64,000 bases of DNA from positions 124,001-188,000 of the forward strand of contig JAUSCD010000008.1 of assembly GCA_030651695.1 (NCBI GenBank), written 5' to 3'. Shown here in pieces: positions 21,281 to 43,732 of this stretch (position 1 is the stretch's first letter; each line of letters opens with the position of its first letter). A model generated the notes under the pieces. The model was not told the DNA's origin and ran no database searches. It worked only from the letters and a program-made list of their open reading frames with translations. Origin of the DNA: Pseudohongiella sp. GTDB taxonomy: Bacteria; Pseudomonadota; Gammaproteobacteria; Pseudomonadales; Pseudohongiellaceae. Both the position numbers and the translations under genes were made by a program.

Positions 21281-21323
21281 TTCAAATCCTCCCATCTGCC
21301 AGCTATGCGGTAGATACCAACTC

Positions 21324-24359: not shown

Positions 24360-24698
24360 TCAGTCCAGCGCGCCCATCACTTCGCCACGGAAACCAAATA
24401 CCTGCCTGGCTCCTGCGTAAGCCACCAGCTCTACCTGACGGCTTTGGCCCGGCTCAAACCTGACAGCAGTGCCGGCGGCTATATTCAGATGAAAACCACG
24501 CGCGCTTGCACGATCAAAACGCAGTGCAGGGTTCACTTCTGCGAAGTGATAATGTGAACCAATCTGCACAGGCCGGTCGCCGGTATTTTCTACCAGCACT
24601 GAGATGGTTTTTCTGCCAACGTTAATCTCTATGTCCGGGCCGTCGGTGATAATTTCACCGGGGATAAAACCGGCAGTGCTTACGGTGTTCGCGCTCAT
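24360..24698 (-). CDS. ureB: Urease subunit beta
   Basis: A 112-residue urease structural subunit with family motifs [32 protein letters not shown] and [19 protein letters not shown]. It is encoded separately from ureA and ureC, as in most proteobacteria. It lies 48 bases after ureA and 43 bases before ureC. Confidence 0.96.
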
Positions 24699-24746: not shown

Positions 24747-25049
24747 TCAATTGATCGGATTGTGAACGGTGACCAATTTGGTGCCATCCGGAAATGTGGC
24801 TTCTACCTGGACTTCGGGAATCAGCTCGGGAATTCCATCCATGACCTGGTCTGCACGCAGCACCTGTTTACCCTCGCTCATCAGCTGGGCCACAGTTTTG
24901 CCATCACGGGCACCTTCCATGATTGCCATTGAAATAAGCGCCACAGCTTCCGGATAATTCAGCTTCAGACCGCGAGCCAGCCGACGCTCGGCAAGCAGAG
25001 CAGCTGTGAATAACAGCAGCTTGTCTTTTTCTCTGGGTAATAATTCCAT
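24747..25049 (-). CDS. ureA: Urease subunit gamma
   Basis: A 100-residue urease structural subunit: [41 protein letters not shown] and the end VTVHNPIN are diagnostic. It forms the (ABC)3 trimer with the ureB and ureC products. The gene follows ureD after about 65 bases. Confidence 0.96.
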
Positions 25050-26026: not shown

Positions 26027-26037
26027 GGGCCCCGCCC

Positions 26038-27548: not shown

Positions 27549-28738
27549 GAGCGGCTCTCCGCTGGTGTTGCACCGCTGCGGTGTGATCCTCTACTGTCTG
27601 ATGCGCCCGGATCCGATCCGGGGTCTTCAGACCCTGCTTTACCCCGGATCAAACCTGCGAGGCCTTTGGGCAGGAAGATGGTCACAATCACAAACAGCGC
27701 CCCCAGCATAAAAATCCAGCTTTCCGGCACCAGCGCGGTAAAACGCGTTTTGGCATAACTCACAAGGATGGCGCCGACTGCTGCGCCATAGAGCGTGCCG
27801 CGTCCACCCACCGCCACCCACACCACCACTTCAATCGAGTTGATCGGGCTGAATTCACCAGGGTTGATAATGCCTACCTGCGGCACATATAAAGCACCGG
27901 CAATGGCAGCAATCAATGCGGAGTAGACAAACAACCACACCTTGTAGTTCTCCGTGCGATAGCCCAGAAAACGCGCACGTGCTTCGCTGTCGCGCACTGC
28001 CACAATGACGCGCCCGAGTCGTGATTTCATGATCAGTTGACTACATACAAAAGCAATACCGAGCAACAGCGCGGTAATCATAAACAGTGACACCCGCGTG
28101 GTATCCGCGCTCAGGCTGAATCCAAGCAGTTCTTTGAAATCGGTCATGCCGTTGTTGCCGCCAAAACCCATTTCATTGCGGAAAAAAGCCAGCATCAGGG
28201 CGTAGGTCAGCGCCTGTGTCATGATGGACAAATACACGCCGGTCACCCGCGAACGGAATGCCAGCCAGCCGAACACAAAAGCCAGCAGACCCGGCACCAC
28301 CATCACCATCAGCATGGCAAACCAGAACTGATCCATTCCCAGCCAGAACCAGGGCAAGGAATCCCAGTTCAGGAACACCATAAAATCCGGCAACCCGGCA
28401 TTGCCATACACGCCACGATCACCAATCTGGCGCATCAGATACATACCCATGGCATAACCACCGAGCGCAAAAAAAGCGCCGTGACCCAAGCTCAGAATTC
28501 CGCAGTAGCCCCAGATCACATCCACGGCCAAAGCCAGCATGGCATAACACAAATACTTGCCAAGCAAGGTGATTGTATAAGTGCTGACGTGGAAAGCCGA
28601 ATCCACTGGCAGCATCAGATTGGAAAACGAAGCCAGCACAGTCAGGATAAACAGCACGGCAACAAACACCGTGATCGTGTTGCCCCCACGTCTGACTTCG
28701 GCCCAGGTGTTCAGTAAACTGCTTAATGACCTTTTCAT
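27545..28738 (-). CDS. urtC: Urea ABC transporter permease UrtC
   Basis: A 397-residue inner-membrane permease of the LivM type with about nine to ten helices. Characteristic segments are DVIWGYCGILSLGHGAFFAL, FRSRVTGVYLSIMTQALTYA, the coupling region RVIVAVRDSEARARFLGY and VGGRGTLYGAAVGAILVSYA. The hydrophilic C-terminal tail is longer than the fold needs. Its start overlaps urtB by ATGA. Confidence 0.95.
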   Translation of the reverse strand: MKRSLSSLLNTWAEVRRGGNTITVFVAVLFILTVLASFSNLMLPVDSAFHVSTYTITLLGKYLCYAMLALAVDVIWGYCGILSLGHGAFFALGGYAMGMYLMRQIGDRGVYGNAGLPDFMVFLNWDSLPWFWLGMDQFWFAMLMVMVVPGLLAFVFGWLAFRSRVTGVYLSIMTQALTYALMLAFFRNEMGFGGNNGMTDFKELLGFSLSADTTRVSLFMITALLLGIAFVCSQLIMKSRLGRVIVAVRDSEARARFLGYRTENYKVWLFVYSALIAAIAGALYVPQVGIINPGEFSPINSIEVVVWVAVGGRGTLYGAAVGAILVSYAKTRFTALVPESWIFMLGALFVIVTIFLPKGLAGLIRGKAGSEDPGSDPGASDSRGSHRSGATPAESRS

Positions 28739-30450
28739 TCTGCAGCCCTGCCTTTTTGTGGAAACAGACCTTTAGGCCGGAACTGAATAAACAGAATGAT
28801 GAAAACCAGTGTGATAATTTTTGCCAGCACAGCACCTGTCACCGGCTCCAGGAATTTGGTGGATATACCCAGTGTGAAAGCACCCACCAGGGTACCAAAC
28901 AGATTACCCACGCCACCAAACACCACCACCATAAATGAATCAATGATGTAGGCCTGTCCGAGATTCGGCCCAACGTTAGTGAGCTGACTCAATGCAACTC
29001 CGGCGATGCCGGCAATACCAGAACCCAATCCAAACGTCATGGCATCAACCCAGTCGGTGCGGATACCCATGGCTTTAGCCATATTGCGATTCTGTGATAC
29101 TGCACGCACCTGCAAACCGAGTGAGGTCTTTTTCAGGATCATCAACAGTGCAAAAAACACCATCAGCGAAAAAATCAGAATATATAAACGATTATTGGTG
29201 AATGACAGTACCGGGTTGATCTGCCAGGTGCCGCTCATCCAGTCCGGTGATACCACAAGGCGATTGAGCGGAGAAAAAATCGTGCGCACCAGTTGTTGCA
29301 GAATCAGACTGATACCAAAAGTCGCCAGCAGCGTCTCCAGCGGCCGCCCGTTGAGATATCGGATAACAAAGCGCTGTATCAGCATACCCACCAGCGCAGC
29401 CACCATAAACGCTGCAGGGATCGCTACCCACAATGAGTAATTGATGAAGTTGGGCATCAGCATCTGGACTACATAAGTAGTGTACGCGCCAAGCATCAGC
29501 ATTTCACCATGTGCCATATTGATAACACCCATCACACCAAAAGTGACAGCAAGGCCAATGGCGGCGAGCAGCAACACTGATCCCAGACTCAGCCCATAAA
29601 ACAACTCCTCAACAAACCGGAAAAACTTGATGCGGGTCTGTATAGATTCCAGCGCTTCGTCGATTGCCTCAAGCACAAGCGGGTCTTGTTCATTACGACC
29701 GGAAGGATCCTGCAAACTCGCGAGCAGATTACGCACAGGGTTTTCAAGACGGCCACGCAAAACTTCTACTGCCTGGATACGCTGCTCTTGTGTTGTCTGC
29801 ATCACCAGCAAATTCATGGCTATGCCGACCTCTATCATCGCACGTACGGAACCGTCCTCCTCGTCGGCGAGCGCTTCGCGTAGCAGAGCCAGGTTGGACT
29901 CATTCAGATCACTGAGCATGTTCAGGGCTGCGGCTTCGCGCTGTCTGTCAGTGCCTTCAAACAGACTGATACGCGCGATGCCATCACGCAGCAATACACG
30001 CAGCCGGTTATTCAGACGAATGCGTTGCAGCGAATCAATATTGAGTGTTTCTGCGGCAGGTTCTCCGCTGAACACGTCGCGTACTGACATTGCATTGGCA
30101 GCTTCAGTGCGGACGTAAAGCAGACGGGTTTCAGGATCAAACACCAGCTCGTTGGCGAGCATGGCGCTAAACAGCGGCAGCACTTCACGGCCGCCCTGTT
30201 CTTCCAGACGCGGGATCAGCGCAGCGGCTTCTCCCAGACTGGCCTCAGTCAATTGCAGTAGCAGAGCATCGAGCCCGGGTTGCTCTGGCGCAGGTTCTGG
30301 CACAGGCCCTGGCTGAATCTCCGACTCAGCCCCAGCAGCCTCCACAAGCGGTGCAGGATCGTCTGTCTGCACATCTGTCTGACCATAAACCGCTGAGACT
30401 AAACAGGCTCCCAGCGTTATTGCAAACAAACTTCTCCAGACACGTCTCAC
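28735..30450 (-). CDS. urtB: Urea ABC transporter permease UrtB
   Basis: A 571-residue LivH-type permease. Residues 1 to about 280 form a signal peptide plus a periplasmic, helix-rich region (Pro/Glu-rich linker, then HEAT-like repeats), an extension common in UrtB proteins. The membrane part begins near LFYGLSLGSVLLLAAIGLAV and includes GVMGVINMAHGEMLMLGAYT and FGLGSGIAGIAGVALSQLTN. It pairs with UrtC as the urea channel. Confidence 0.94.
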   Translation of the reverse strand: MRRVWRSLFAITLGACLVSAVYGQTDVQTDDPAPLVEAAGAESEIQPGPVPEPAPEQPGLDALLLQLTEASLGEAAALIPRLEEQGGREVLPLFSAMLANELVFDPETRLLYVRTEAANAMSVRDVFSGEPAAETLNIDSLQRIRLNNRLRVLLRDGIARISLFEGTDRQREAAALNMLSDLNESNLALLREALADEEDGSVRAMIEVGIAMNLLVMQTTQEQRIQAVEVLRGRLENPVRNLLASLQDPSGRNEQDPLVLEAIDEALESIQTRIKFFRFVEELFYGLSLGSVLLLAAIGLAVTFGVMGVINMAHGEMLMLGAYTTYVVQMLMPNFINYSLWVAIPAAFMVAALVGMLIQRFVIRYLNGRPLETLLATFGISLILQQLVRTIFSPLNRLVVSPDWMSGTWQINPVLSFTNNRLYILIFSLMVFFALLMILKKTSLGLQVRAVSQNRNMAKAMGIRTDWVDAMTFGLGSGIAGIAGVALSQLTNVGPNLGQAYIIDSFMVVVFGGVGNLFGTLVGAFTLGISTKFLEPVTGAVLAKIITLVFIILFIQFRPKGLFPQKGRAAE

Positions 30451-30492: not shown

Positions 30493-31794
30493 TCAGTATG
30501 ATTGGCCCGAGCACACACCAGTCACAGTGTTGTAGTTGCCACAGCGGATCGGAGCGGTCCAGTCCGCCTCAAGATCTTTTGATCCATCCAGAAAGTCAGA
30601 CCAGGCATCCCCTTCAATCAGACCTTCGGTTTCCCACACGACCTCAAACTGCCCATTGGCCTGGATTTCACCAATCAGCACCGGTTTGGAAATGTGGTGG
30701 TTTTTGCCCATCACCGCAATGCCACCAGTCAGATTAGGTGTCTCCATACCAATCATCGCCTGCTCTACCGCATCTACATCAGTGGCGCCGGCTTTCTCAA
30801 CTGCTTTTACCCACATGTTGAAGCCGATGTAGGTCGCTTCCATAGGGTCATTTGTCACACGATTGGTATTGCCGATAAAGCTGTGCCACTTCTGAATAAA
30901 TTCGGCGTTCTCGGGCGTTTCGACGCTCTGGAAATAATTCCAGGCTGCCATGTGGCCAACCAGTGGCCGGGTATCAATGCCCGAAAGCTCTTCTTCACCA
31001 ACAGAGAAAGCAATCACCGGAATATCTTGTGCGGAAACGCCCTGATTGGCGAGCTCGCGGTAGAAAGGAACGTTGGCATCGCCGTTGATTGTGGACACCA
31101 CTGCAGTGGCTTTGCCGGCGTTACCAAAACGCTGGATTTCAGCCACGATGCTCTGCCAGTCGGAGTGACTGAACGGAGTGTAATTGATCATGATGTCGGC
31201 GTCGGCTACACCATGGGATTTGAGGTAGGCTTCCAGAATACGGTTGGTAGTGCGCGGGTATACATAGTCTGTACCTGCCAGCACCCAACGCTCTATGCCG
31301 AGATCATTCATCAGGTAATCCACAGCCGGAATTGCCTGCGTATTTGGTGCTGCTCCGGTGTAGAAAATATTTTTCGAAGACTCTTCGCCCTCATACTGTA
31401 CAGGGTAGAACAAAAGACCGTTCAATTCTTCGAGCACTGGCAGCATGGACTTACGTGACACTGACGTCCAGGCACCAAAAATCACATCCACTTTTTCCTG
31501 CGATAACAATTCGCGGGTTTTTTCCGCAAACAAAGGCCAGTCTGACGCGGGATCAACCACTACTGCCTGCAGCTGCCTGCCCAGCACACCGCCTTTTTTG
31601 TTCTGCTCATCAATCATCATCAGCACGGTGTCTTTCAGCGTCGTTTCGCTGATAGCCATCGTTCCGGACAGGGAGTGGAGCACACCTACTTTGATGGTGT
31701 CCTGGGCAATAACCATGTGACTGAACGCAGTCAATCCCAGCAAACAAACGCCGGCTTTTCTGACCAACTGAGACACCATTTTTCTACTGCTCAT
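30493..31794 (-). CDS. urtA: Urea ABC transporter substrate-binding protein UrtA
   Basis: A 433-residue periplasmic urea binder of the LivK/AmiC type: signal peptide to about MVIAQ, then DTIKVGVLHSLSGTMAISET, VVDPASDWPLFAEKTRELL, FGAWTSVSRKSMLPVLEE and NGLLFYPVQYEGEESSKNIF, all typical of UrtA. AGGAG lies 6 bases before the ATG. It is the first gene of the urea operon, with a 200-base promoter region upstream. It would capture urea from outside or from periplasmic ureohydrolases encoded upstream. Confidence 0.96.
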   Translation of the reverse strand: MSSRKMVSQLVRKAGVCLLGLTAFSHMVIAQDTIKVGVLHSLSGTMAISETTLKDTVLMMIDEQNKKGGVLGRQLQAVVVDPASDWPLFAEKTRELLSQEKVDVIFGAWTSVSRKSMLPVLEELNGLLFYPVQYEGEESSKNIFYTGAAPNTQAIPAVDYLMNDLGIERWVLAGTDYVYPRTTNRILEAYLKSHGVADADIMINYTPFSHSDWQSIVAEIQRFGNAGKATAVVSTINGDANVPFYRELANQGVSAQDIPVIAFSVGEEELSGIDTRPLVGHMAAWNYFQSVETPENAEFIQKWHSFIGNTNRVTNDPMEATYIGFNMWVKAVEKAGATDVDAVEQAMIGMETPNLTGGIAVMGKNHHISKPVLIGEIQANGQFEVVWETEGLIEGDAWSDFLDGSKDLEADWTAPIRCGNYNTVTGVCSGQSY

Positions 31795-31994: not shown

Positions 31995-33029
31995 TCAGAC
32001 ACCAAGCACCCGCTCGACTGTCCAGAACACTCCCAGCCCCCCAACAACTCCCAACGCAGCGCGGATGAAATACATATCAAAGCGGATGGTGCGGCAAAGC
32101 CTGACAAATGCCAGCACAGCGAGCACAAACAATACCTGTCCGACTTCAACGCCTATGTTGAAAAACGCCAGGGCGATAACAGTATCTGAGGGAGAAACAC
32201 CTAACTCACCCAGCACCGATGCAAATCCCAGTCCGTGAATCAGACCAAACGCTGCCGTCAGTGCCATCTTCCCGCGCTGACTTTTCAGACTGCCTTCGTT
32301 GGTTACTGCATTTGTCGAGAAACGGTTGTAGAAAATGGCCTCTCGCGCCATAAACACCACCGACAGCGCAATCACAGCTTCAACCGGACCAATAGGAACA
32401 CTGACGATTCCAAAGAACGATAACGCCAGTGACAAAGAATGTCCGACCGTAAATGCGGTGATCAGCCAAAGTAAGGATACACCTGACGCCAACATTGCCA
32501 GACAGAATACAAACGCGAGATGATCCCAGCCGATCAGAACGTGCTCGGTACCTAAAGTCAGGTACAGCCATGCTGTGCTGGCCGCAGAGCGTGCGACAAT
32601 CTCTTCATCAAAGTCGGGTAGCGCCAGCGTGATGCCGGAACGTGCGCCGGTCAGCATCATAGAACTGCTGGTGCCGTCCCGGTATTCGAATACCACACGG
32701 CCACCGTCACGCCCCCACTGCGTACTGATTACACCCTGTGTGCCGCCTGCACAACCAATCTCAAACTCTACACTGGGCAGAAAACCCGGACTGCTCTGCT
32801 GGCGACTCAACAATTCGCAGCCCTGCGGCCATTGCACCGGCTGCACGGGATTGGAACTTTGGGGAAGATTATCTACACGTAAACGGAAACGGCCGGCCTC
32901 TTCACTTTCATAGAAAGTAAACTGGGCAATATCCAGGTAATGCGCACTGGCTGTCTGGGCACCCTGCAGAATCCACACAATAACGAACAAGACAGCGATT
33001 CTGCAGTAGCCGGACCTAATCTTTGACAT
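31995..33029 (-). CDS. HupE/UreJ family membrane protein with exported N-domain
   Basis: About 344 residues. A signal peptide ends near QTASA, then comes a roughly 140-residue beta-rich extracytoplasmic domain (HYLDIAQFTFYESEEAGRF), then six or seven membrane helices with the HupE/UreJ motifs TEHVLIGWDHLAF (His-x4-Asp-His), TVGHSLSLALS and GLIHGLGFASVLG. Members are proposed Ni/Co permeases. ATG 33029 is chosen because GAGGTGG lies 6 bases upstream; it overlaps the isomerase gene by 14 bases. As last gene of the arginase cluster and neighbour of urease, a Ni supply role is attractive but inferred. Confidence 0.85.
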   Translation of the reverse strand: MSKIRSGYCRIAVLFVIVWILQGAQTASAHYLDIAQFTFYESEEAGRFRLRVDNLPQSSNPVQPVQWPQGCELLSRQQSSPGFLPSVEFEIGCAGGTQGVISTQWGRDGGRVVFEYRDGTSSSMMLTGARSGITLALPDFDEEIVARSAASTAWLYLTLGTEHVLIGWDHLAFVFCLAMLASGVSLLWLITAFTVGHSLSLALSFFGIVSVPIGPVEAVIALSVVFMAREAIFYNRFSTNAVTNEGSLKSQRGKMALTAAFGLIHGLGFASVLGELGVSPSDTVIALAFFNIGVEVGQVLFVLAVLAFVRLCRTIRFDMYFIRAALGVVGGLGVFWTVERVLGV

Positions 33030-33882
33030 TGACATCCACCTCGTACACAACATCAAACTGCGGGCGGATTACCTCCACCTGCTCGCTGATACGACGACGC
33101 TGTTCAGCGCCGGTCCAGCTTGTTCTGACACGTGAATATATGTCTTCAAATCTGAGCGGAAGCGCCGCAGTTACTTCACTTACCGATACATAGTGATATC
33201 CGCGCGGTGAAGTAAGCGGGCCTATCCAGCTTCCCAACGGCGCAACTTTCAGAGCTTCATAGAAGTCCCCACCGAAATTTGTCCGCAGTACACTCTCGGC
33301 GTAACTGTCTATGCTGTTACCCAACCAGTAGGCATCCCCTGGTATCGTCTCTCCTGCATTAAGACGGGCCGGAATATTTTCACTGTTCTCCGGCAACTGA
33401 TTAAAATACAGCTGCACAAATGATGCTTTGGGTTCAGAGTAGTAGAACGCAATATTGTCCATATAATGCTGCAGTACCTGCTCATCGGTAGGATCGTCCG
33501 GTAGGCCTGCCCATAACAGACTGATTTTTTCGATCATGTGCTCGCGCACCTTGCCGTCGTTAAGATGCTGTTCGGTGATCAGGGTATGACGGAAGATGAT
33601 TTCCTCTTCTAACCACTCAGCAACGATCTGTTCAGTTTCCTCAGCACTTGGCTGACGGCCAGCCAGCCAACTGAACTCCTCTTGTAATGCGACCAGCAGA
33701 GGCTCATTGACTTCAATGCGCGCAAGATTGGACATACCCGATGCCGACTGCCCGGCCTCAAAGACCTGCTCAGGCTGATCTGGCCTGAGCATATCCAGTA
33801 CAAAAATCAGCACCGCGACTATCGAGAATATTGTTAAAGGTTCCTTGATGAAACTCGCCGGAGAAAACGTTTTATCAGTCAT
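33016..33882 (-). CDS. Membrane-anchored parvulin-type peptidyl-prolyl isomerase
   Basis: A 288-residue protein: short cytosolic start, one membrane helix (LTIFSIVAVLIFVLDML), a SurA/PpiD-like helical chaperone part (SAEETEQIVAEWLEEEIIFR) and a parvulin-like region (SEPKASFVQLYFNQL, APLGSWIGPLTSPRGYHYVS). It should act in the periplasm on exported proteins. It lies between the exported arginase-family genes and the HupE/UreJ gene; isomerase plus HupE-like pairs are common. The substrate could be the HupE-like protein or the arginases. Confidence 0.82.
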   Translation of the reverse strand: MTDKTFSPASFIKEPLTIFSIVAVLIFVLDMLRPDQPEQVFEAGQSASGMSNLARIEVNEPLLVALQEEFSWLAGRQPSAEETEQIVAEWLEEEIIFRHTLITEQHLNDGKVREHMIEKISLLWAGLPDDPTDEQVLQHYMDNIAFYYSEPKASFVQLYFNQLPENSENIPARLNAGETIPGDAYWLGNSIDSYAESVLRTNFGGDFYEALKVAPLGSWIGPLTSPRGYHYVSVSEVTAALPLRFEDIYSRVRTSWTGAEQRRRISEQVEVIRPQFDVVYEVDVNVKD

Positions 33883-33897
33883 GTTTTAAATCCGAAG

Positions 33898-35298
33898 TTA
33901 GTTAGAGCCATGGTCGAGTGTCAACGGAGCAAGGTAGTCCGTGTCGCTGGCTACCCCTGACTTGTACAACGCTACCCCGGCCAGACACGCATTCATTACA
34001 TAATTCGCATTCAGGGCGCTGGTGTAGGTGATATCAAGCATCGGAGCCAAATCAAGAATCTCGAAACCGGCTACAGGATTTTCAGCACACAGGCGACGTA
34101 CCAATGGCAATACTTCGCGCATTGTCAGACCACCGGGAACTGCGCGTCCGGCCGCTGGCAACTGCGAAATATCAAGTACGGACACATCAAAACTGATATA
34201 GACCGGAAGCCCTGACTGGCTGGCTTCACGTAAAACCCTGGTCGCCACGGCGTCCCAGCCCCTGCGTTCGACCTCCGCCATTGTGTGGTATTTGACACCT
34301 TGCTGTCGCAGCCACTGTAGTTCCTGCCTCCCTGCCTGCGGCCCGCGCAGGCCAACCTGTATCAGGTTGCCACCTGCAAGTTTGTTTTCAGTGATCAATT
34401 TATAAATAACATCGCGATCTGAAACCTGGTGGGCACCAACGGGCTCGCCATTGAAGTGCGCACCCAGATGCACAACTGTGACACCGCTTTTGTACTGACT
34501 GCTGATGGCTTTAATCGAGGAATAACTTACAGAGAAATCGCCACCGATCAGAAAAGGTATTGTCCCCGTCTCCACGATACTGCTTACCATCGCGCTGATA
34601 TGTTCAATGGTGCGGTCTTTCAGCATGCGGTCGACATTAAAGTTGCCGTAGTCAACAATGTTCAGCACTGCATGTGGGTCTTGAAGTGTAAACAGATTGC
34701 GGTCGGCAATGCCGTGCATCAGCCGCATCGCTTTGGGACCATTATCAGAATCGCGGGTGCCACTGCTCATACTCTGAGGAACACCGGCAATAGCGACATC
34801 GACTTTGCCGGCAATCAGATCTTCCGGGAAAACCGCCACCGGTGCACCTGCAAACGTCGGCACACCGCCTCCACCGATATAACGCGATACGTTTACCGGG
34901 CCAAAATCCCGTCGTCGTGTCCAAAGGGCAGCAGGACGCAGTGTGGTAGCGCTGTTGAATCCCTCATTTTCCCTGTTCAGTACTATCTCGCCCATATCTA
35001 TGCCGGGACGCCAGGCCAGCACAGAAACGGTGCTCATCATGTCCGAGACAAACACAAGATTCTGTTCAGGGTTGCGTCTCATCAGCTCATCCGTCAGCCT
35101 CGACGCTGACGCAAAAAGACGCAGAGGTTCTTCACTGAAAAGGAACTCACGCTGTGCTTCATCAAGCAGAGCCAGCCTTGACTGCAGGTCTGCAGTGTTG
35201 CTCACCAAGGCTGTCGGTTGCGACCGCGGCTGTGTTCCGGAACAGGCTGCCAGCAGAACTGAGCACGCCATCGCCGTTACTAATGTTCTTACATTCAT
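33898..35298 (-). CDS. Arginase-family lipoprotein with degenerate metal site
   Basis: A 466-residue arginase/agmatinase-fold protein with a lipoprotein signal (lipobox LAAC, Cys19). The ureohydrolase core is full length, but metal ligands are replaced: GGDHS is GGDFS (His to Phe255), DAHxD is GAHFN (Asp to Gly279 and Asn283), and DxD is DVS (Ser373). So it should not bind the usual two metal ions. Conservation with the 36747-38105 protein (VKYHTMAEVERRGW, AAGRAVPGGLTMREV, SALNANY) is high, which argues for a selected non-enzymatic subunit. ATG 35298 has AAGGG upstream; the earlier in-frame start at 35352 is unlikely. Last of four tandem paralogs. Confidence 0.88.
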   Translation of the reverse strand: MNVRTLVTAMACSVLLAACSGTQPRSQPTALVSNTADLQSRLALLDEAQREFLFSEEPLRLFASASRLTDELMRRNPEQNLVFVSDMMSTVSVLAWRPGIDMGEIVLNRENEGFNSATTLRPAALWTRRRDFGPVNVSRYIGGGGVPTFAGAPVAVFPEDLIAGKVDVAIAGVPQSMSSGTRDSDNGPKAMRLMHGIADRNLFTLQDPHAVLNIVDYGNFNVDRMLKDRTIEHISAMVSSIVETGTIPFLIGGDFSVSYSSIKAISSQYKSGVTVVHLGAHFNGEPVGAHQVSDRDVIYKLITENKLAGGNLIQVGLRGPQAGRQELQWLRQQGVKYHTMAEVERRGWDAVATRVLREASQSGLPVYISFDVSVLDISQLPAAGRAVPGGLTMREVLPLVRRLCAENPVAGFEILDLAPMLDITYTSALNANYVMNACLAGVALYKSGVASDTDYLAPLTLDHGSN

Positions 35299-35314
35299 CT
35301 GTAGACCCTTACGT

Positions 35315-36739
35315 TTACTGTAACCCTTCCACATATTGCCGCTGGTAGTCATCTTGCCCGTGATCCAACGTGGTCGGATTGAGGTAGTGCGGATCGGTCA
35401 AACCTTTTTTGCGCATCGCCACGCCAGTCAGACAGGCTTTTACAATCGCGGCGCTGTGAAGCGTGGTTTTGTAGGTCGGATCCAGAGCCGGCGCCACCTC
35501 AACCAGTTCAAAACCACGGACATCACTTTCAGCGCATAGACGGCGCACTATCGGAATTGCTTCGCGGGGAGTAATACCACCTGACACCGGCGTTCCTGTA
35601 CCGCCTGTATAAACCGGATCCAGGATGTCGACATCAAAGGAGATAAAAAGCACCTTCTCCTGATCGGTATCGGCACGCGCTTCCTTCAAAACCCGTTCCA
35701 TAACCCAGTCCCAGCCGAATCGTTCTACTTCGGCCATCGAGTGATACCGGAACCCCTCCTCCTGCAGCCATTTGTAAGTTTCTTCATCCGGGCTGCCGGA
35801 GCGCAGGCCGACCTGGATGTAGTCCTTGCCTTCGATCAGCCCCTCTACCATCAGGCGATGCACAGGCTGACCGTGATCTATCAAATGAGTGCGATCGCGC
35901 CCCACGTCGTAATGCGCATCGAAGTGAACCACAGCAACCTTGCCCTTGCCATAAAAGTCGACCATGGCTGCCACATCAGGATAAGCCAGCGAGTGGTCGC
36001 CGCCGATGATGACCGGCATGGCACCCGCTTCAAGAATCTCGTAAACAACTCTGCGCACTTCCTGTGTGCTGCGCTCAGTGCTGTTGTTGTCGATTGCGAT
36101 ATCCCCGTAATCAACGATATTGAGTTCGGCGCTGGGGTTGACCTGCACATACTGATCATTGCCGGACATGCCATACATACTTCGCAGCGCAAGCGGGCCA
36201 TGATCTGCATCTCTCCAGCCAGAGCCCATGTTCAGAGGCGCGCCCACAATTGCCACATCAACTTTTCCGGCAATCAGATCTTCCGGAGTCAGTGCGATGG
36301 GCGCGCCTGCGAACGTTGACAAACCACCACCAAAACCACCGGCATAACGACCCAGATCCAGCGGGCCTGCCTCGCGAGACGGGTTGAATGAGCCGGGGCG
36401 CAAGGTCACCCACGCATTAAAGTCCGGATCGTTTGTATTCATCGGAATATTATCGAGATCACGACCTTCCCTGAATTTTCGTTGATCGGCCATCCACATC
36501 AGCGCATCGACGTAAGCCACAACTTCCTCCGCCGTGCGCTTCTCAAGCGCTTCAAACAGATTGTCGCGGTTACGGGTTTCGCGGTTCAGATAATCAAGCT
36601 GTTCCGCTGACAGGCCTGTAAGCCGGCCCTGTAATTCAGGCGGGAACTCAATTGGTTCACGCTCCCCGTTCTGCTCCTGAGCAAACGAAGAAACGGCTAC
36701 CAACATCATTGCGGCCATAAGACTTGCGTAATGTTTCAT
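35315..36739 (-). CDS. Exported arginase/agmatinase-family ureohydrolase, complete metal site
   Basis: A 474-residue protein with a Sec signal (MKHYASLMAAMMLVAVSSFA), a helical N-domain of about 120 residues and a ureohydrolase core with all six metal ligands: His249 (GGDHS), Asp274, His276 and Asp278 (FDAHYD), Asp369 and Asp371 (SFDVDILDP). It should hydrolyse a guanidino compound to urea in the periplasm; the substrate (arginine, agmatine, guanidine or other) cannot be read. ATG 36739 is preceded by GAGGG and gives the signal peptide; the in-frame codon at 36817 does not. It ends TLDHGQDDYQ like the 38132 copy. Confidence 0.9.
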   Translation of the reverse strand: MKHYASLMAAMMLVAVSSFAQEQNGEREPIEFPPELQGRLTGLSAEQLDYLNRETRNRDNLFEALEKRTAEEVVAYVDALMWMADQRKFREGRDLDNIPMNTNDPDFNAWVTLRPGSFNPSREAGPLDLGRYAGGFGGGLSTFAGAPIALTPEDLIAGKVDVAIVGAPLNMGSGWRDADHGPLALRSMYGMSGNDQYVQVNPSAELNIVDYGDIAIDNNSTERSTQEVRRVVYEILEAGAMPVIIGGDHSLAYPDVAAMVDFYGKGKVAVVHFDAHYDVGRDRTHLIDHGQPVHRLMVEGLIEGKDYIQVGLRSGSPDEETYKWLQEEGFRYHSMAEVERFGWDWVMERVLKEARADTDQEKVLFISFDVDILDPVYTGGTGTPVSGGITPREAIPIVRRLCAESDVRGFELVEVAPALDPTYKTTLHSAAIVKACLTGVAMRKKGLTDPHYLNPTTLDHGQDDYQRQYVEGLQ

Positions 36740-36746
36740 AGAGCCC

Positions 36747-38105
36747 TCACTGACCATGATCCAGCGCAAGCGGCGACAGATAGTTCGCCTCGGTGATTCC
36801 TTCCTTACGCAACGCAATTCCTGCCAGACAGGCGTTCATCAGATAGTTGGCGTTTAATGCAGAGACATACGTGAAATCCAGCATAGGGGCCATATCGGCG
36901 AGTTCAAAACCGGCAATTTCGGTCTCTGCACACAGGCGTCTGAGCAAGGGCATAACTTCGCGCATCGTCAGTCCACCTGGCACAGCACGACCGGCCGCCG
37001 TCATTTGCGCGGTATCCATAACGCTGACGTCGAGAGAGATGAAAACGGGTTTGCGTGTCGCCTTGGCCTCGTCAACCACTCTGGTCAGCACACTGCCCCA
37101 GCCTCTGCGCTCAACCTCGGCCATCGTGTGGTATTTGACCCCTTGCTCACGCAGCCAGAGCAGATTCTGTTCTGTGAGTTGCGGCCCGTTTAAACCCACC
37201 TGAATCAGATCCGGACCATCTACGATGCCCTCAACCAGAAGACGGTAAGCGGCGTCCTGATCGGACAGCGTATGAGCGCCAGTGCGTTTGGTATCAGAAT
37301 GCGCACCCAGTTGAACAACTGCGATTCCGGCATCCCGCGAGCTTTGCACACCTTTGACAGCTGAGTACATGACACTGTGGTCACCGCCAATCAGAAATGG
37401 TCTGGCTCCGGTGTCTGCGATGTCTTTTACTTCCTGCGTAATGAAGTCAACGCTGCGCTCGATGGCCATGCGGTCCACATTGATATCACCAAAATCAGCA
37501 AGATTCAGTGTCGCAGCAGGGTCAACCAGCAGATACAGATTACGGTCGGCCATCCCGTGCGAACCACGCACACTACGCGGGGCATTGCGCGCGTCACGAT
37601 TTCCGCTGCTCAGACTTTGCGGCACACCTGCAAACGCCACTTCAACTTTGCCTGCTACCAGGTCGTCGTGATTGATCGCCACCGGAGCCCCGGCAAACGT
37701 GGGGATACCTGAGCTCGGACGAATATAACGATGCACGCTGAAAGGCCCCGGACTGCGACGCATTGTCCACAGTGCCGCTGGCTGGCGAATAAGGTTGTTG
37801 AAGGTTGTAGCTTCAGTATTCAGCGGGATTGCGCCCATATCATTGGCCGGATCGTAGGCCAGCCCGGCTAACACACTCATCATATCGCTGACGTAGGTCA
37901 CGATCTGCGAAGGTGTTCGGATTTCAAATGCTTCATTCAGTTGCCGCTCGTTAAACAGCCTGAGCGGAGCGTCGCTGTCGAGAAAAGACCGCTGCTCAGC
38001 TGAAAGCGCACTGAACTTTTGTGTGATGGCCGATGGAAAATCCACCGCCATCGCCTGACCGGACAACAGCACCGCACCCAGGGTTAACACTAACTTGTTT
38101 TTCAT
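36747..38105 (-). CDS. Exported arginase-family protein with partly lost metal site
   Basis: A 452-residue paralog with a Sec signal (MKNKLVLTLGAVLLSGQAMA). GGDHS is kept (His243), but DAHxD is GAHSD (first Asp to Gly267) and SFDVDxxDP is SLDVSVMDT (second Asp to Ser361), so at least two bridging ligands are missing. GTPVSGG of the active copies is GRAVPGG here, as in the 33898 protein. It is intact and well conserved, so a pseudoenzyme partner fits better than a decaying gene. Seven bases separate its stop from the next active copy's start. Confidence 0.88.
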   Translation of the reverse strand: MKNKLVLTLGAVLLSGQAMAVDFPSAITQKFSALSAEQRSFLDSDAPLRLFNERQLNEAFEIRTPSQIVTYVSDMMSVLAGLAYDPANDMGAIPLNTEATTFNNLIRQPAALWTMRRSPGPFSVHRYIRPSSGIPTFAGAPVAINHDDLVAGKVEVAFAGVPQSLSSGNRDARNAPRSVRGSHGMADRNLYLLVDPAATLNLADFGDINVDRMAIERSVDFITQEVKDIADTGARPFLIGGDHSVMYSAVKGVQSSRDAGIAVVQLGAHSDTKRTGAHTLSDQDAAYRLLVEGIVDGPDLIQVGLNGPQLTEQNLLWLREQGVKYHTMAEVERRGWGSVLTRVVDEAKATRKPVFISLDVSVMDTAQMTAAGRAVPGGLTMREVMPLLRRLCAETEIAGFELADMAPMLDFTYVSALNANYLMNACLAGIALRKEGITEANYLSPLALDHGQ

Positions 38106-38131
38106 GACTACTTATCCTTGCAGGTCAGCTG

Positions 38132-39562
38132 CTACTGGTTTTCCTCTACCCATCGGCTCTGATAATCATCCTGCCCATGATCCAATGTCGTTGGATTCAG
38201 GTAGTGAGGATCGGTCAGTCCCAGCTTTCGCATTGCGAGACCGGTCAGACAAGCTTTCGCGATCGCGGCACTGTGCAGTGCAGTGGTATAGGTCGGGTCA
38301 AGGGCAGGCGCCACTTCAACCATATCGATACCCACGACATTGGCTTCCGCGCACAGACGACGCATGATGGGGATTGCTTCACGAGGTGTCATACCTCCGG
38401 ACACTGGCGTTCCCGTACCAACGATGTAGCTGGGATCAAGCACGTCAACGTCAAAGGAGATGTAGAGTTTGCGATCTCCTTCTTTGGCTTCTGCCAGTAC
38501 ACGCTCCATCACCCAGTCCCAACCAAAACGCTCAACCTCAGCCATGGAGTGGTAACGAAACCCTTCCTCCTGCAACCATTTGTAAACCTCTTCATTCGGG
38601 CTACCCGATCTCAGACCAACCTGTATGTAGTCTTTGCCTTCGATGTGGCCGTCTTTCAAAAGACGATAAATGGGTGAACCGTGGGTGATGCCATGTACGC
38701 CGCCACGACCGACGTCGTAGTGCGCATCAAAGTGAATGACTGACAGATTGCCTTTGCCGACTACATCGACCAGACCGGCAACGTTCGGGTACTCAAGAGA
38801 ATGGTCACCACCGATGATGAATGGGATGGCGCCGGTTTCTGTGATCTCACGCACGACTGCGCGCACGTGCTGCATACTGCGCTCGGTATTATCATTATCG
38901 ATGGCGATATCGCCGTAATCGACTATGTTCAGTTCGCTGTTGGCATTGACCTGGGTGTACTGGTCGTTACCAGCCATACCGCCCTGCATACGCATCACCA
39001 GCGGGCCGTGGTCAGCATCACGCCACCCGGAACCCATATTCAGTGGAGCGCCCACAATCGCCACATCAACTTTGCCTGCAATCAGATCCTCTACCGTCAG
39101 CGCCAGAGGGGCTCCGGCAAAAGTTGGAACACCACTGGGCAAACGCACCGGGCCGGGCTCCCGGTCGGGGTCAAAGCTGCTTGGCCGGCGTGTCATCCAG
39201 GCATTAAAATCAGGATCTGCTGTGTTTAGGGGAATTGACGCCTGATCACGTCCTTCGACGAATTTCTGTTGATCGGCAACCCAGCGCATCGCCTCCACAT
39301 ATTCAACAACTTCCTGCGGCGTACGCTTGCCTATGGCTTCCAGAAGAAGCTCTGTGGTTCTGGCATAACGCCGTGTGTTGGAGGGTGTACTCAGATACTC
39401 GAGCTGATCGTCGCTAAGCAGCGACAGCCTGTCGTTCAATTCTGCCGGAAACTCGACGCGTTGCGGCGGTCTTTCTTCCTCTTCTTCCTGCGCGGAAAGC
39501 GGCCCGGCGAGACTCAAGGCCAGTATTGCGGGCAGCAGGCCTCTGGTTTTGAACTTAAACAT
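38132..39562 (-). CDS. Exported arginase/agmatinase-family ureohydrolase, complete metal site
   Basis: A 476-residue protein, first in the cluster. Sec signal MFKFKTRGLLPAILALSLAG, an acidic linker (QEEEEERPPQ), a helical N-domain, then the ureohydrolase core with His254 (GGDHS), Asp279/His281/Asp283 (FDAHYD) and Asp371/Asp373 (SFDVDVLDP). All ligands for a binuclear metal centre (Mn in most relatives, Ni in guanidine hydrolases) are present. Very similar to the 35315 copy through GAPLNMGSGWRDADHGPL and LTDPHYLNPTTLDHGQDDYQ. It lies 146 bases downstream of a TonB-dependent receptor on the same strand and may share its transcript. Confidence 0.9.
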   Translation of the reverse strand: MFKFKTRGLLPAILALSLAGPLSAQEEEEERPPQRVEFPAELNDRLSLLSDDQLEYLSTPSNTRRYARTTELLLEAIGKRTPQEVVEYVEAMRWVADQQKFVEGRDQASIPLNTADPDFNAWMTRRPSSFDPDREPGPVRLPSGVPTFAGAPLALTVEDLIAGKVDVAIVGAPLNMGSGWRDADHGPLVMRMQGGMAGNDQYTQVNANSELNIVDYGDIAIDNDNTERSMQHVRAVVREITETGAIPFIIGGDHSLEYPNVAGLVDVVGKGNLSVIHFDAHYDVGRGGVHGITHGSPIYRLLKDGHIEGKDYIQVGLRSGSPNEEVYKWLQEEGFRYHSMAEVERFGWDWVMERVLAEAKEGDRKLYISFDVDVLDPSYIVGTGTPVSGGMTPREAIPIMRRLCAEANVVGIDMVEVAPALDPTYTTALHSAAIAKACLTGLAMRKLGLTDPHYLNPTTLDHGQDDYQSRWVEENQ

Positions 39563-39708: not shown

Positions 39709-42700
39709 TCAGAAAGTCATATCCACACCGACATAGTAAGACCGGCCCATCATTGTTACTGGCGTGGAGCTTGACGTGACATAAGGCTGTTCATTCGTCA
39801 CGTTACCGACGCCTCCAAACACGCTCAATGAGTCGCTATAACCATAGCGGGCAGACAGGTTGTGAGAGAAAAAGTCTTTGCTGAAAACCATATCACCATA
39901 GTTCTGTCTCGCAGTCTCAATCTGTCCGGTCATGACTTGCTCACCCTGCCAGCGTGTTCTCCAGTTCAGTGAGAAGTCGTTGTACGCTGCGTTCATCGAG
40001 AACTGGCCACCCCACTCCGGACGATTGAGCTCACCCAGACCTACGTTCACTCTGGGGACCTGGCCCGGGTTGGCCGGTTCGATGACGTCATGCTGTTTCA
40101 ACTTGGTAACGGTGCCGTTCAGCCCCATCCTCACCGGGCCAAGATCAAAGCGATAGCCAGCGGTCATGTCGATACCGCGCGCTTTGACGCTGCTCATGTT
40201 AGCCAATCCCTGCAGCAGGTAGGAAAAACCACCTACTTGCGGGCTTGCCGCGCTATTCTGACGGCGAAGCAAGGCACAGAAAGGATTGTTCAGCGTGGCT
40301 GCGTCGTAACAACCATTCACGATATCCTGAGCAGCGATAGTCTCGATTGAGCCCATTATCTCGATATCCCAGTAATCCACTGTCAGAGAAAGCCCCGGAA
40401 TAAACCGTGGCTGCACTACCACACCAAAGGTCTCCGTGGTGCCGGTTTCCGGCAGCAGATTAAGATTGCCACCGGTCTCACCAGAAAAAGAAGCTGTCAG
40501 TGGATTGATCCACGAGTAATTTCCGGACTCGTCGAATATCGGATTACCACCACCCTGCAGAGGAACGTTGTAAGACTGCAACGAAGCCACACAGTTGGTC
40601 TGACGGATCCCGGGGTTCGGAGCTGCCTTTATATTCTCGACAGAGCACGGATCACGGGGATTGAAAGTGGCACCCTGAATAGGCGCAAACAGCTCATAAA
40701 TATTTGGCACCCGTACCGCTTCATTGATGCTGTAACGGAACCGAATATCGTCCACCGGCATCCAGACCAGACCAGCGCCCCAGGTAGTGCTTTTGCCGAA
40801 GGTTGAGTAGTCGGAGCTGCGCACAGCTGCGTCAAGTGTCAACTCCTCCACCATGAACACACCGTTTAGCAGCGGGATTGATGTCTCGGCATAGAAATCC
40901 AGAACATCGTACTGGCCACTACCATTTTTCAGCAGATTGCTTGGGCTGCTCCCCAGGCTCTTTGCACTGTTGGCGAAGCCACCCGTAGTCACATCGCCAA
41001 CCCAGTCACCCGGTTTGTAGGCAACACCGTATTGTGTGACACCGGCCACCTGGATAATCCCGCGGTCGTATTCGTGCCAGTTTTGCTTTGAAGTCTCTTC
41101 GCGCCATTCAAAACCGGCAGCAAAAGCAATTGAACCTGCCGGTAGTTCGAACCAGGGCGCCGAGGTGCCACTGACAAAACCACCGACCACACTCTGTGAG
41201 ATTTTTTCTTTGACCGGCCGATCGTACGTAAAGAACTCAGATGCTGCGTCCAAACCGCCATGGCCGCCGAAGACATTTGCCGGTACACATTGCCCATCAC
41301 CGGGGCTGAAGGTGAAAAACGGAGTACGCGCTGTCTGCCCCAGATATCGCGGGAAGTTCCATGGCGATGTTGGCGCGTAGGCAGTCGGGTCCAGATCCGA
41401 ACGGCACACAGGCTGACCTGTTGCAGGATTGGTTACAACGTCAAGAGAAGCAAAGAACCTGTCGATAATAACCGTGTCATGTTCGATGGCGGTGCGCCGG
41501 AACTCGCCATAGTTGGCAGAGAGTTCGTAATTGAGTTCCCATCGATCAATTGTCCCGCTCACCCCTCCCACAAAACGATAGGTATCGCGTTTGTTTTCCC
41601 GCATGGCGTTGCCGTAGTCTTCGGAATCACGGCTGGTGTAGATGCCGGGACCATACCAGCCATTGGTGGGCTGCCGGGCATAGGGCTGCAGCGCAGCAGG
41701 GATAAACGGGTTGTCGGGAGCTGAGTAGAGCAAGTCGGTCGAGAACAGAACGCCGCCACCCGAGGTGACTTCATGGCGTACGTACTTGGCTTCGCCAAAG
41801 AATCTCATATTGTCATTGACGTCATATTTTGACGTCAGGTTGATACTGACCTTTGCATCCTCTGGCATCAGATACGAAGGGTTGACCACACCACGAAAAC
41901 TTTGTGTTGCTCCGTACTGGTTATCGCCGTCGATAACAAGTCCGTCCTGATAAGGAATCAGATTCCCCGCGGCGTCGATATACCAGCACCCACCACCACC
42001 AAAGGCCGGAGAATTGAACCCGGTCCAGCTTTGCAGACAGTCTGCAACGCCATTACCGTCAAGGTCAGGTGAGGTAGCCAGGTTGCGCTGAGTGTTAGAG
42101 GTAATTGCGCCATAACCCACCACACCATAAGGAGAGGTAATGTTAAAGACGTAGCCGGGCGCCAAAGTGAGTGGAGTGACCTGATTGGGACGATCCAGCA
42201 AATCCCGCTCCGCCTGTGTCAGATTGGGCGCTGCGCCGAATGCACTCGTGAACTGGGTGTTGAACCCGGTGTTCGTCGGAATTGGCATCCCCCAAGGGAA
42301 TCGACGGGTATTTGTGTAGTTATAGAAGCGCGCCAGGTTGGGCATGGTTGCAGCGTCAATATCGCCCTGCTGAAATCTGCGCATCGGGTTTGCACCAGAA
42401 GTCCAGTTACCACCTTCCGCATGCCGGCCGCGTTGATCAGATTTCAAACCACTAAATGAATCATGTTGCACGGCCACCGTCACGTTGCCACGACCGTCAT
42501 CGAAGTTTCGGCCGAACAGCGCTTCCAACCCGTAGTTTTCACCGTCGCCTTCTCCGGATATGCCGCCTCTGGCCGAGAACTGCACTCCTTCAAAATCCTC
42601 CTTGAGCACAAAGTTCACAACTCCGGTAACCGCGTCTGCACCATACACTGCCGATGCGCCACCGGTCAGCACTTCAACGCGCTCAATCAAGCCAGAAGGA

Positions 42701-43143
42701 ATAGTGGTAACGTCTACAGAAGAAGTACCTTCGATTCCGGACACGTGACGGCGACCATTAACCAGTGTCAGCGTGCGGTTGGAGCCAAGACTGCGCAGAT
42801 TGAGCGCACTGCCGCCGACGTTGCCCGAGCGACCGGTGTTACCGGTAGAGGAGTTATTCGAACTGATGGAGGACGCCATCAGCGCGGGATTTTCCGTCAG
42901 CAGATCCGCAAGATCGGTAACCGCCGAATTCCCGATGGTCTCCGCGTCGATAGTCTGGACAGGTTGCGCCGATGTCATATTCGGATCACGCTGCAGGCGA
43001 CTGCCGGTAACCACAACTTCTTCCAGTGTTGGTTCACCCAAGGCCTGACCATACACAGTGGGCACGGCCGAGGCGGATGCCAGAAGCGCAACAGCAAAAC
43101 TTAATCGTCGACGTCGAAATGAACTCAGTGACTTGGTATTCAT
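39709..43143 (-). CDS. TonB-dependent receptor, paralog 2
   Basis: About 1144 residues from ATG 43143. N-terminus MNTKSLSSFRRRRLSFAVAL with an Arg-rich start to its signal peptide, TonB-box-like LEEVVVTGSRLQRD, plug motifs (NLRSLGSNRTLTLVNGRRHV, EVLTGGASAVYGADAVTGVV) and a barrel ending with Phe (SYYVGVDMTF). Codons upstream of 43143 do not encode a signal. It is a close paralog of the 43733-47152 gene, sharing an almost identical first 14 codons and upstream leader. It lies just upstream of the exported arginase cluster, so the ligand may be a guanidino compound or peptide (inference). Confidence 0.93.
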   Translation of the reverse strand: MNTKSLSSFRRRRLSFAVALLASASAVPTVYGQALGEPTLEEVVVTGSRLQRDPNMTSAQPVQTIDAETIGNSAVTDLADLLTENPALMASSISSNNSSTGNTGRSGNVGGSALNLRSLGSNRTLTLVNGRRHVSGIEGTSSVDVTTIPSGLIERVEVLTGGASAVYGADAVTGVVNFVLKEDFEGVQFSARGGISGEGDGENYGLEALFGRNFDDGRGNVTVAVQHDSFSGLKSDQRGRHAEGGNWTSGANPMRRFQQGDIDAATMPNLARFYNYTNTRRFPWGMPIPTNTGFNTQFTSAFGAAPNLTQAERDLLDRPNQVTPLTLAPGYVFNITSPYGVVGYGAITSNTQRNLATSPDLDGNGVADCLQSWTGFNSPAFGGGGCWYIDAAGNLIPYQDGLVIDGDNQYGATQSFRGVVNPSYLMPEDAKVSINLTSKYDVNDNMRFFGEAKYVRHEVTSGGGVLFSTDLLYSAPDNPFIPAALQPYARQPTNGWYGPGIYTSRDSEDYGNAMRENKRDTYRFVGGVSGTIDRWELNYELSANYGEFRRTAIEHDTVIIDRFFASLDVVTNPATGQPVCRSDLDPTAYAPTSPWNFPRYLGQTARTPFFTFSPGDGQCVPANVFGGHGGLDAASEFFTYDRPVKEKISQSVVGGFVSGTSAPWFELPAGSIAFAAGFEWREETSKQNWHEYDRGIIQVAGVTQYGVAYKPGDWVGDVTTGGFANSAKSLGSSPSNLLKNGSGQYDVLDFYAETSIPLLNGVFMVEELTLDAAVRSSDYSTFGKSTTWGAGLVWMPVDDIRFRYSINEAVRVPNIYELFAPIQGATFNPRDPCSVENIKAAPNPGIRQTNCVASLQSYNVPLQGGGNPIFDESGNYSWINPLTASFSGETGGNLNLLPETGTTETFGVVVQPRFIPGLSLTVDYWDIEIMGSIETIAAQDIVNGCYDAATLNNPFCALLRRQNSAASPQVGGFSYLLQGLANMSSVKARGIDMTAGYRFDLGPVRMGLNGTVTKLKQHDVIEPANPGQVPRVNVGLGELNRPEWGGQFSMNAAYNDFSLNWRTRWQGEQVMTGQIETARQNYGDMVFSKDFFSHNLSARYGYSDSLSVFGGVGNVTNEQPYVTSSSTPVTMMGRSYYVGVDMTF

Positions 43144-43732
43144 CAGAAATATTACCCCCGGTACGTGTCTGGTTGACCAGCCTGTTACGGCTCCCGCTAT
43201 TAATTTTCTTTGCAGACTTTTTAAAGTCATCGTGTTTGGTGTTTTTTTTGAAGGCACTAAATATATTTCTATGCACAAACAAAGCACCGCAATAGTCAGG
43301 AGCAACATCTGTGCCATATTGCGTAAATAATATTTATCAAGAACTTATACAAATGAAGGGAATTTTATTACTAAAATGGTGTCACTTTGCAGCGCAGGAA
43401 AGCACTAAAAGGCACTTAATAGGAGCACACGAGGAAGATATTTACTGTTATATAATAATATCTTACGAACTTTTATTTACCTTTTGTTTTAAAACAATCC
43501 GGCACAAATAGCATTAATCTACGCACCATAATAAATTATAGAAATACGCCGCATCACGTAGCACAAAAGGAACAGTACGCACACATAAGAAGGCCGGAAC
43601 GTATTGCGGTACGCACAATAACTCAGATGGAGAATTAATCAGGGCGAAAAAAAACCACCAGCGTTACGCAGACACGTAATGCTGGTGGATATTTTTATTT
43701 ATCTTACTTTTTGAAGCGCGTTCAGCCCGCCA
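43144..43732. other. 589-base AT-rich region: leader of receptor paralog 2 and end of paralog 1
   Basis: No credible gene. Positions about 43144-43430 are the leader of the 39709-43143 receptor and align with the leader of the other receptor (see 47153). Shared blocks include TTACCCCCGGTAC, ATGCACAAACAAA, AATATTTATCA and TGTCACTT. Positions 43430-43640 are AT-rich with TACGCACAATA at 43610-43620. The rest holds the terminator of the upstream receptor. Confidence 0.6.
43647..43688 (-). terminator. Terminator of receptor paralog 1
   Basis: CCACCAGCGTTACG (43655-43668) pairs with CGTAATGCTGGTGG (43675-43688) with one wobble position around a six-base loop. On the minus strand the stem is followed by eight T residues (plus-strand A-run 43647-43654), 45 bases after the receptor stop. 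Confidence 0.9.

Follow-up and report, generated by a model that had tools for sequence, protein, structure and literature searches.

Why should a marine bacterium export several arginase-fold proteins from adjacent genes and keep the metal site intact in only every second one? The question is posed by a 64,000-nucleotide stretch of Pseudohongiella sp. DNA (GenBank assembly GCA_030651695.1, contig JAUSCD010000008.1, positions 124,001 to 188,000; hereafter the window), where four arginase-fold genes stand in tandem on the minus strand at 33898-39562, transcribed in the order CAT1, PSE2, CAT3 and PSE4. CAT designates the proteins with a complete set of metal ligands, and PSE their pseudoenzyme neighbors. 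The answer favored in this work, with moderate confidence and on the basis of sequence comparison, is an exported ureohydrolase built from two kinds of subunit, CAT for catalysis and PSE as an obligate partner without catalytic function, that would feed urea to the urea transporter Urt and to urease.

CAT1 (38132..39562, 476 amino acids) carries all six metal ligands (H254, D279, H281, D283, D371 and D373) together with the pocket residues H294, T385 and E416, and CAT3 (35315..36739, within a mechanically called open reading frame at 35315-36817) is likewise complete, both giving the six-ligand string HDHDDD. PSE2 (36747..38105, 452 amino acids) retains the GGDHS motif and reads HGHDDS, with Asp replaced by Gly at 267 and by Ser at 361, and with D282, R373 and D404 in place of the pocket His, Thr and Glu. 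PSE4 (33898..35298; mechanical open reading frame 33898-35352) reads FGHNDS, has the remodeled pocket Asp-Ser-Arg-Asp and is lipoprotein-like, with the lipobox LLAAC-S. The starts at 36739 (CAT3, MKHYAS...) and 35298 (PSE4, MNVRTL...) are in-frame ATGs preceding signal peptides. Matches to the Pfam Arginase model (PF00491, cut-off 22 bits) reach 246.6, 166.6, 240.9 and 176.1 bits for CAT1, PSE2, CAT3 and PSE4, the domain starting only at residue 155-169 in all four, and all four score under the curated cut-offs of the NCBIfam agmatinase, arginase and hutG (formimidoylglutamase) models. A first-pass annotation, made from the sequence alone, had described four tandem genes with these motifs at these places, and coordinates, start codons and Pfam matches agree with it. 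It had also assigned a Sec or lipoprotein signal to each copy; an in-house heuristic, not SignalP, returns three Sec signal-peptidase-I-like signals and one lipobox, that of PSE4. The likeness it saw between copies 1 and 3 and between copies 2 and 4 is borne out by domain identities of 76% for CAT1 vs CAT3 and 60% for PSE2 vs PSE4, against 44-46% between types. By their PF00491 domain, alpha/beta/alpha fold and six His/Asp ligands, CAT1 and CAT3 are classified in the arginase/agmatinase superfamily; the PSE proteins lack the six ligands of a catalytically active ureohydrolase, and their active site probably cannot work. Shuffled sequence contained more promoter-like and terminator-like sites than the real one.

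The altered residues of the PSE proteins form a fixed pattern across a wider family. In total, 77 CAT/PSE-type proteins were collected, the cut being set at 300 bits for whichever of two seed profiles scored higher; 21 other ureohydrolases reached at most 177 bits. In a larger set, ligand-complete CAT rows read HDHDDD in 59/59 cases, and PSE strings end in S (DxD to DxS) in 39/39. Exactly four of the CAT1 columns distinguish CAT from PSE with at least 90% agreement within either class, namely H294 to D, D373 to S, T385 to R and E416 to D in CAT1 numbering; each replacement is present in 39/39 PSE, and the CAT residue is kept in 53/54, 54/54, 53/54 and 54/54 rows, respectively (six of the 60 CAT rows, L151-L154 and two partial sequences, are omitted from the class-column count; per-position counts include all). 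The statement of the first-pass annotation that key ligands had been lost thus held as to the losses and understated the change, since the Asp-Ser-Arg-Asp replacement set is fixed. These four positions align with H163, D232, T244 and E274 of the agmatinase SPEB; in the accessible portion of PMC8049259, H163, T244 and E274 are proposed to contact the substrate guanidinium and D232 is a metal ligand. D373S removes a metal ligand, T385R places an arginine at the site where SPEB T244 is proposed to contact the substrate guanidinium, and the His-to-Asp and Glu-to-Asp changes supply possible acidic partners for that arginine. A conserved Arg together with two new Asp residues suggests a PSE pocket that the protein plausibly fills with its own arginine rather than with metal and substrate. 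The other five PSE ligands drift, from the Novosphingobium protein that keeps all five (HDHDDS) to the least intact form, NGNNDS, which keeps one, and R134 of the N-terminal extension is present in 39/39 PSE.

The CAT and PSE labels were assigned by scoring against two seed alignments, which had first been split by ligands, and are therefore not fully independent of the ligands; a 102-row tree from which ligand and pocket columns were removed, as confirmed on the retained alignment, provides the independent check. In an 82-row tree lacking the six ligand columns and G382/T383, the 35 PSE form one clade (support 100/99). In 102-row quick trees, all 39 PSE form one clade, with values of 100 and 99 in the Shimodaira-Hasegawa-like approximate likelihood ratio test, and 43 CAT, all paired except L087, form another (96 and 97); the tree giving 99 for PSE and 97 for CAT had all ligand columns, the GTGTP motif, H294, G295 and E416 removed. 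These large trees omit the partial CAT L095 and L145, the partial PSE L116 (221 amino acids) and sequences that duplicate another over their final 220 residues. The simplest reading is that a single duplication of an exported enzyme gave rise to CAT and PSE. The pair itself was then apparently multiplied: in the 82-row tree CAT1 and CAT3 are sisters (100/99), as are PSE2 and PSE4 (97/85), and in the lineage of L044-L046 the two CAT (97/92) and the two PSE (100/98) are again sisters, the gene order in L042 and L043 being CAT-PSE-CAT. Sister copies in two separate lineages point to duplication of the CAT-PSE pair at least twice, unless gene conversion homogenized the copies. An earlier proposal that a two-gene unit had been duplicated in the window accords with this topology, under the same proviso, and the alternating pairs recur in related genomes, which argues against a chance arrangement.

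Both classes appear to be maintained by selection. Ratios of nonsynonymous to synonymous substitution (dN/dS), estimated by the Nei-Gojobori method (NG86) after cutting the first 60 aligned codons, lie at 0.025-0.084 in 11/12 PSE comparisons and at 0 in the twelfth; for CAT, 12/13 comparisons give 0.011-0.069, and one of 0.306 at a dS of 0.02 was not interpreted. By these values the PSE, the copies whose selection the first-pass annotation had proposed to check, are under purifying selection. They are also almost always found beside a CAT: after omission of the redundant loci L089, L090, L091 and L155 from adjacency and neighborhood counts, a same-strand CAT lies within 400 bases of 40/41 non-redundant PSE, the exception lying 127 bases from a contig end. 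Conversely, 19/61 non-redundant CAT have no adjoining PSE, three of these 19 being at contig ends. The dependence of PSE on CAT thus appears one-way, as an obligate non-catalytic subunit predicts. The distances of CAT and of their PSE partners also correlate, at r = 0.934 over 38 pairs, with 0/300 shuffles as high.

Models generated with AlphaFold2 for CAT1 and PSE2 have the arginase fold and a confident N-terminal helical part; in CAT1, residues of about 40-100, ahead of the Pfam domain, form helices at high confidence. The top structure match for both models, and also for both sequence profiles, is GdmH (7esr), at only 25-28% identity. It is followed for CAT1 by guanidinobutyrase and agmatinase, with metformin hydrolase first appearing at rank 35, and for PSE2 by formimidoylglutamase, guanidinopropionase and guanidinase, with a metformin hydrolase chain at rank 10. 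GdmH and guanidinase (9fek) are not known to have a pseudoenzyme partner. Agmatinase SPEB and guanidinobutyrase share with CAT the six ligands and the equivalents of H163, T244 and E274, and differ in their shorter chains of about 306-329 amino acids, which lack the N-terminal extension of CAT.

A catalytic and a non-catalytic subunit combined in an arginase-fold heterohexamer, as the first-pass annotation had envisaged, have a precedent in metformin hydrolase. According to the accessible portions of PMC11399263 and PMC11271267, metformin/dimethylguanidine hydrolase (MefH, MetCaCb, MfmAB; DmgH) is an alpha2beta4 arginase-fold heterohexamer in which either subunit is inactive alone, MetCb being needed by MetCa, and in which the N-terminus of the dead subunit caps the active site. 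In plant arginases, too, a neighboring subunit shapes the ureohydrolase active site, as described in the available part of PMC7370999. Like CAT and PSE, the metformin hydrolase genes are adjacent and encode a six-ligand protein and a ligand-poor partner of the same fold. The chains of metformin hydrolase, however, measure 348-378 amino acids without an N-terminal extension, and its genes adjoin the nickel chaperones HypA and HypB and lack the neighborhood of the CAT/PSE genes, whereas no HypA adjoins the window pairs, a GTPase with a HypB/UreG domain lying at the urease end. HypA (PF01155) had no match across the whole genome of the window, controls being positive in 7/14 named genomes. The term 'signal peptide' has 0 occurrences in the available text of PMC11399263, as has 'periplasm' in that of PMC11271267. 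With the CAT and PSE profiles, GdmH and guanidinobutyrase score higher than does either subunit of metformin hydrolase; by these scores and the shared N-terminal extension, the pairing of enzyme and pseudoenzyme likely arose independently of metformin hydrolase, direct descent from that pair being judged unlikely from the profile scores. Two plasmid loci were examined for a relative of MetCb, and no such pair was seen there. Searches of an open-licence library yielded no description of exported paired arginases.

The genes around the tandem, which the first-pass annotation of these four genes had not brought in, give the proposed enzyme its metabolic context. At the head of the cluster, and on the minus strand like all genes named here unless stated otherwise, lie a TonB-dependent receptor (43733..47152; Pfam; conserved at this place in relatives, where the homologues are 74-88% identical) and a second one (39709..43317), 53% identical to the first. 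The relatives L040 and L041 carry a single TonB receptor at the locus, and the second window receptor may be a lineage-specific duplicate. As a clue to substrate, receptor subfamily models gave nothing at cut-off among the best 25 of 29 and 26 matches. Downstream of PSE4 follow a PpiC-type peptidyl-prolyl isomerase of 288 amino acids (33016..33882; Pfam Rotamase_2, 30.8 bits, cut-off 27), with a hydrophobic segment near the N-terminus that, judged by eye, is a probable membrane anchor, and a HupE/UreJ-2 permease of 353 amino acids (31995..33056; Pfam HupE_UreJ_2, 138.6 bits). The urea ABC (ATP-binding cassette) transporter comes next, with the binding protein UrtA (30493..31794; TIGR03407, 565.4 bits, cut-off 492.75), the permeases UrtB (28735..30450; TIGR03409, 430.5 bits, cut-off 250.3) and UrtC (27545..28738; TIGR03408, 442.8 bits, cut-off 296.2), all three identified with NCBIfam models, a probable UrtD (26727..27548, from position and size only) and a probable UrtE ATPase (26038..26730, from Pfam ABC_tran and position). 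The urease genes complete the series: the accessory protein UreD (25115..26041; PF01774), probable UreA (gamma, 24747..25049, 100 amino acids) and UreB (beta, 24360..24698, 112 amino acids), both named from position and translation, the alpha subunit UreC (22598..24316; PF00449 and PF01979), the accessory proteins UreE (21979..22572; Pfam) and UreF (21324..21992; Pfam), and the UreG-like GTPase with its cobW/HypB/UreG domain (20543..21295; PF02492). An Rfam 5' ureB sRNA (small RNA) match of 102.5 bits at 23881-24166, antisense inside ureC and found also in L045, L052 and L102, probably reflects only urease gene similarity.

On the plus strand beyond the urease genes lie a hybrid histidine kinase with a multi-pass membrane N-terminus (15872..19351; Pfam HisKA, HATPase_c and Response_reg, plus hydrophobic segments) and a LuxR-type response regulator (19348..20286; Pfam). 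This pair, 15872-20286, resembles CrbS/CrbR-type sensors. Kinase/regulator pairs 42-47% like it occur in L052 and L102, where the kinase homologues near CAT are 47% and 45% identical; since both of these loci place the relatives close to exported ureohydrolases, urea or a related solute may be what the system senses. L151 and L152 show a likeness of just 32-38% (kinase 32-33%), which may be general kinase similarity.

A single PSE clade, a fixed PSE pocket, purifying selection, constant adjacency, correlated partner distances, the urea neighborhood, the arginase fold of both models and the metformin hydrolase precedent together favor the heteromeric ureohydrolase. A guanidino compound would enter via the TonB receptors and be hydrolyzed by a periplasmic CAT:PSE complex that releases urea; UrtABCDE would import the urea, and cytosolic urease would split it. 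The complex containing PSE4 would probably be tethered to a membrane by the PSE4 lipid, PpiC could assist the folding of the Sec-exported subunits, and HupE/UreJ-2 could handle the metal of CAT:PSE. We infer the complex itself, its periplasmic site, its urea product, the supply of metal by HupE and the filling of the pocket. The accessible portion of PMC12537917 describes HupE/UreJ-2 'anglerase' permeases with an exported N-terminus starting with His, proposed to fish periplasmic metal. The window protein resembles them in its HupE_UreJ_2 domain and in a predicted exported N-terminus that begins with His (signal cleavage, placed by eye, at ASA|HYLD...), and differs from them in its link to PpiC and an exported ureohydrolase; by-eye cleavage leaves an N-terminal His in 12/19 non-redundant HupE copies.

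The same set of genes recurs elsewhere. Pseudohongiella-type relatives (L040-L046 and L061) show, as far as their contigs extend, the TonB receptor, CAT-PSE, optionally a further CAT-PSE or CAT, then PpiC, HupE and Urt. PpiC and HupE also adjoin CAT/PSE in L050, L051, L052, L086 and L102 and unpaired CAT in L088, L146 and L147, HupE alone being present in L144; overall, both lie within 6 kb in 17/51 non-redundant loci. Urt and/or urease genes are in view in 11/51, namely the window, L040-L046, L061, L052 and L102, without counting an ABC-ATPase match of 26% in L084. Gene sets like that of the window occur in a Lysobacterales genome and on a Novosphingobium plasmid, that of Novosphingobium sp. 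RL4 (NZ_CP141945.1, 1.8 Mb), whose region L102:3792-34300 combines a PSE-CAT pair and an unpaired CAT with two copies of PpiC-HupE, with genes for Urt and urease and with a kinase/regulator pair. The PSE encoded there, with five of six metal ligands, is the least degenerate found. Among plasmid records, PSE2 matched 498; just one of these, from Novosphingobium sp. RL4, spans 80% or more of PSE2, and a CAT1 search at E 1e-50 returned this record only. Full-length members were found in 9/15 genomes of the genus, the window's own included, and members at comparable scores in 0/20 family and 0/21 order genomes beyond it. Samples around other carriers gave 1/150 (phylum of G801), 12/147, 7/200, 1/147 and 6/193. 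Such sample tallies include the genome searched from and rest on scoring the best few first-look candidates of each genome, four at most, which makes them lower bounds. Carriers comprise Gammaproteobacteria, a plasmid of an alphaproteobacterium and a genome with the label Marinimicrobia. Such a distribution across orders and phyla, together with the presence of one set on a megaplasmid, fits horizontal spread.

Beyond the window, its genome (G000, 3.86 Mb) has further arginase-family genes: its seven PF00491 matches are the four described above, an additional pair at L008:9174-12294 (G000:C8) and one ordinary agmatinase-like gene (L009), nearest to 4dz4 and E. coli SPEB. The third pair, absent from the first-pass annotation as were the fixed four-residue pocket change and the adjoining urea-transport and urease genes, lies on another contig in reversed order, PSE first, with no urease genes in view. 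Pairs resembling it occur in other Pseudohongiella, in Glaciecola and in further genomes. A haem-peroxidase-like gene (Pfam peroxidase; L062:10199-12439) stands upstream of one such PSE-CAT pair, and open reading frames of the same size (745-746 amino acids) occupy the corresponding place in L064 and L065. In a congener without full genes, a short stretch (G001:C2:914595-915104, L019) is 41% identical to PSE2 residues 169-337 and may be what remains of a lost locus.

Several observations weigh against an exported heteromer dedicated to urea salvage. No PpiC-HupE pair is found in 34/51 loci and no Urt or urease gene in 40/51, many of them with short flanks. Pairs of the third-locus type, however, are mostly without PpiC-HupE, Urt and urease, even where more than 5 kb is available on each side, so that urea salvage is not the setting of every pair. 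The family is rare, with tallies of 1/369 in the class sample and 2/398 in the phylum sample, the window's own genome included and at most four candidates scored per genome. No guanidine riboswitch reached the gathering threshold in the window and six other loci. HupE may simply feed nickel to urease, and the N-terminal His is absent in 6/19 HupE copies, one further N-terminus being ambiguous. In the 102-row trees one unresolved fork joins the PSE clade, the paired-CAT clade, the lone CAT of L052 and a lone-CAT trio (L102, L144 and L146), the remaining lone CAT branching below it, and L087, an unpaired CAT, sits within the paired-CAT clade. The correlation of partner distances comes from a mirror-tree comparison that ignores shared descent, and dS is saturated in the dN/dS comparisons between the window and L040. 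By the same export heuristic, 3/60 CAT are flagged as lipoproteins and 5/60 (at least two of them partial) have no signal. Only 13/39 PSE, several doubtful, are flagged as lipoproteins; the anchoring suggested for the pseudoenzyme therefore fits the PSE4 lipobox and is otherwise only occasional.

The pairs of the third-locus type outside urea clusters would be expected if the heteromer had a job other than urea salvage, such as detoxification, signaling or modification of an envelope compound, and the urease neighborhood were incidental; the TonB receptor may likewise suggest a substrate larger than guanidine. This alternative is unlikely, as the main Pseudohongiella loci keep Urt, plus urease on contigs of sufficient length, and the urea link is seen in other taxonomic orders in L052 and L102. 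It is quite unlikely that PSE is no subunit at all and instead a separate guanidino-compound-binding protein, acting as receptor, scavenger or carrier beside CAT. Its four fixed residues do stand at substrate-binding positions, where binding could be selected, and some PSE are lipoproteins; however, an Arg at the point of guanidinium contact would be expected to repel such a ligand, PSE stands away from CAT only at one contig end and shares the N-terminal extension with it, and the arginase family forms trimers and hexamers. That PSE is an enzyme of different chemistry, with a remodeled pocket holding one metal or none, would agree with a pocket that is fixed rather than random and with the five ligands (HDHDDS) of the Novosphingobium protein, but is highly improbable given the drift of the remaining ligands across the clade (to NGNNDS), which a conserved metal mechanism would forbid. 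The view of PSE as decaying duplicates or plain dosage copies, prompted by the lost metal ligands, is scarcely credible and was rejected in light of purifying selection (dN/dS below 0.1), the four fixed replacements, a single origin and constant adjacency.

The exported two-subunit ureohydrolase thus remains the favored interpretation. A fuller version of it is put forward only tentatively: CAT and PSE might represent a second, independent invention of such a heteromer, exported and sometimes lipid-anchored, with a fixed Asp-Ser-Arg-Asp PSE pocket holding its own arginine instead of metal and substrate, matured outside the cytoplasm with PpiC and HupE, and converting TonB-imported guanidino compounds to urea before they reach the cytosol. 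As far as the available portions of the cited papers go, they describe one kind of arginase-fold enzyme that combines a catalytic and a dead subunit, and CAT/PSE would, if this interpretation is true, be the second. Three questions could then be addressed directly: what enzymes gain from recruiting inactive copies of themselves, by what route a binuclear metal site is loaded beyond the cytoplasm, and whether the periplasm is a place where marine bacteria obtain nitrogen from guanidino compounds.

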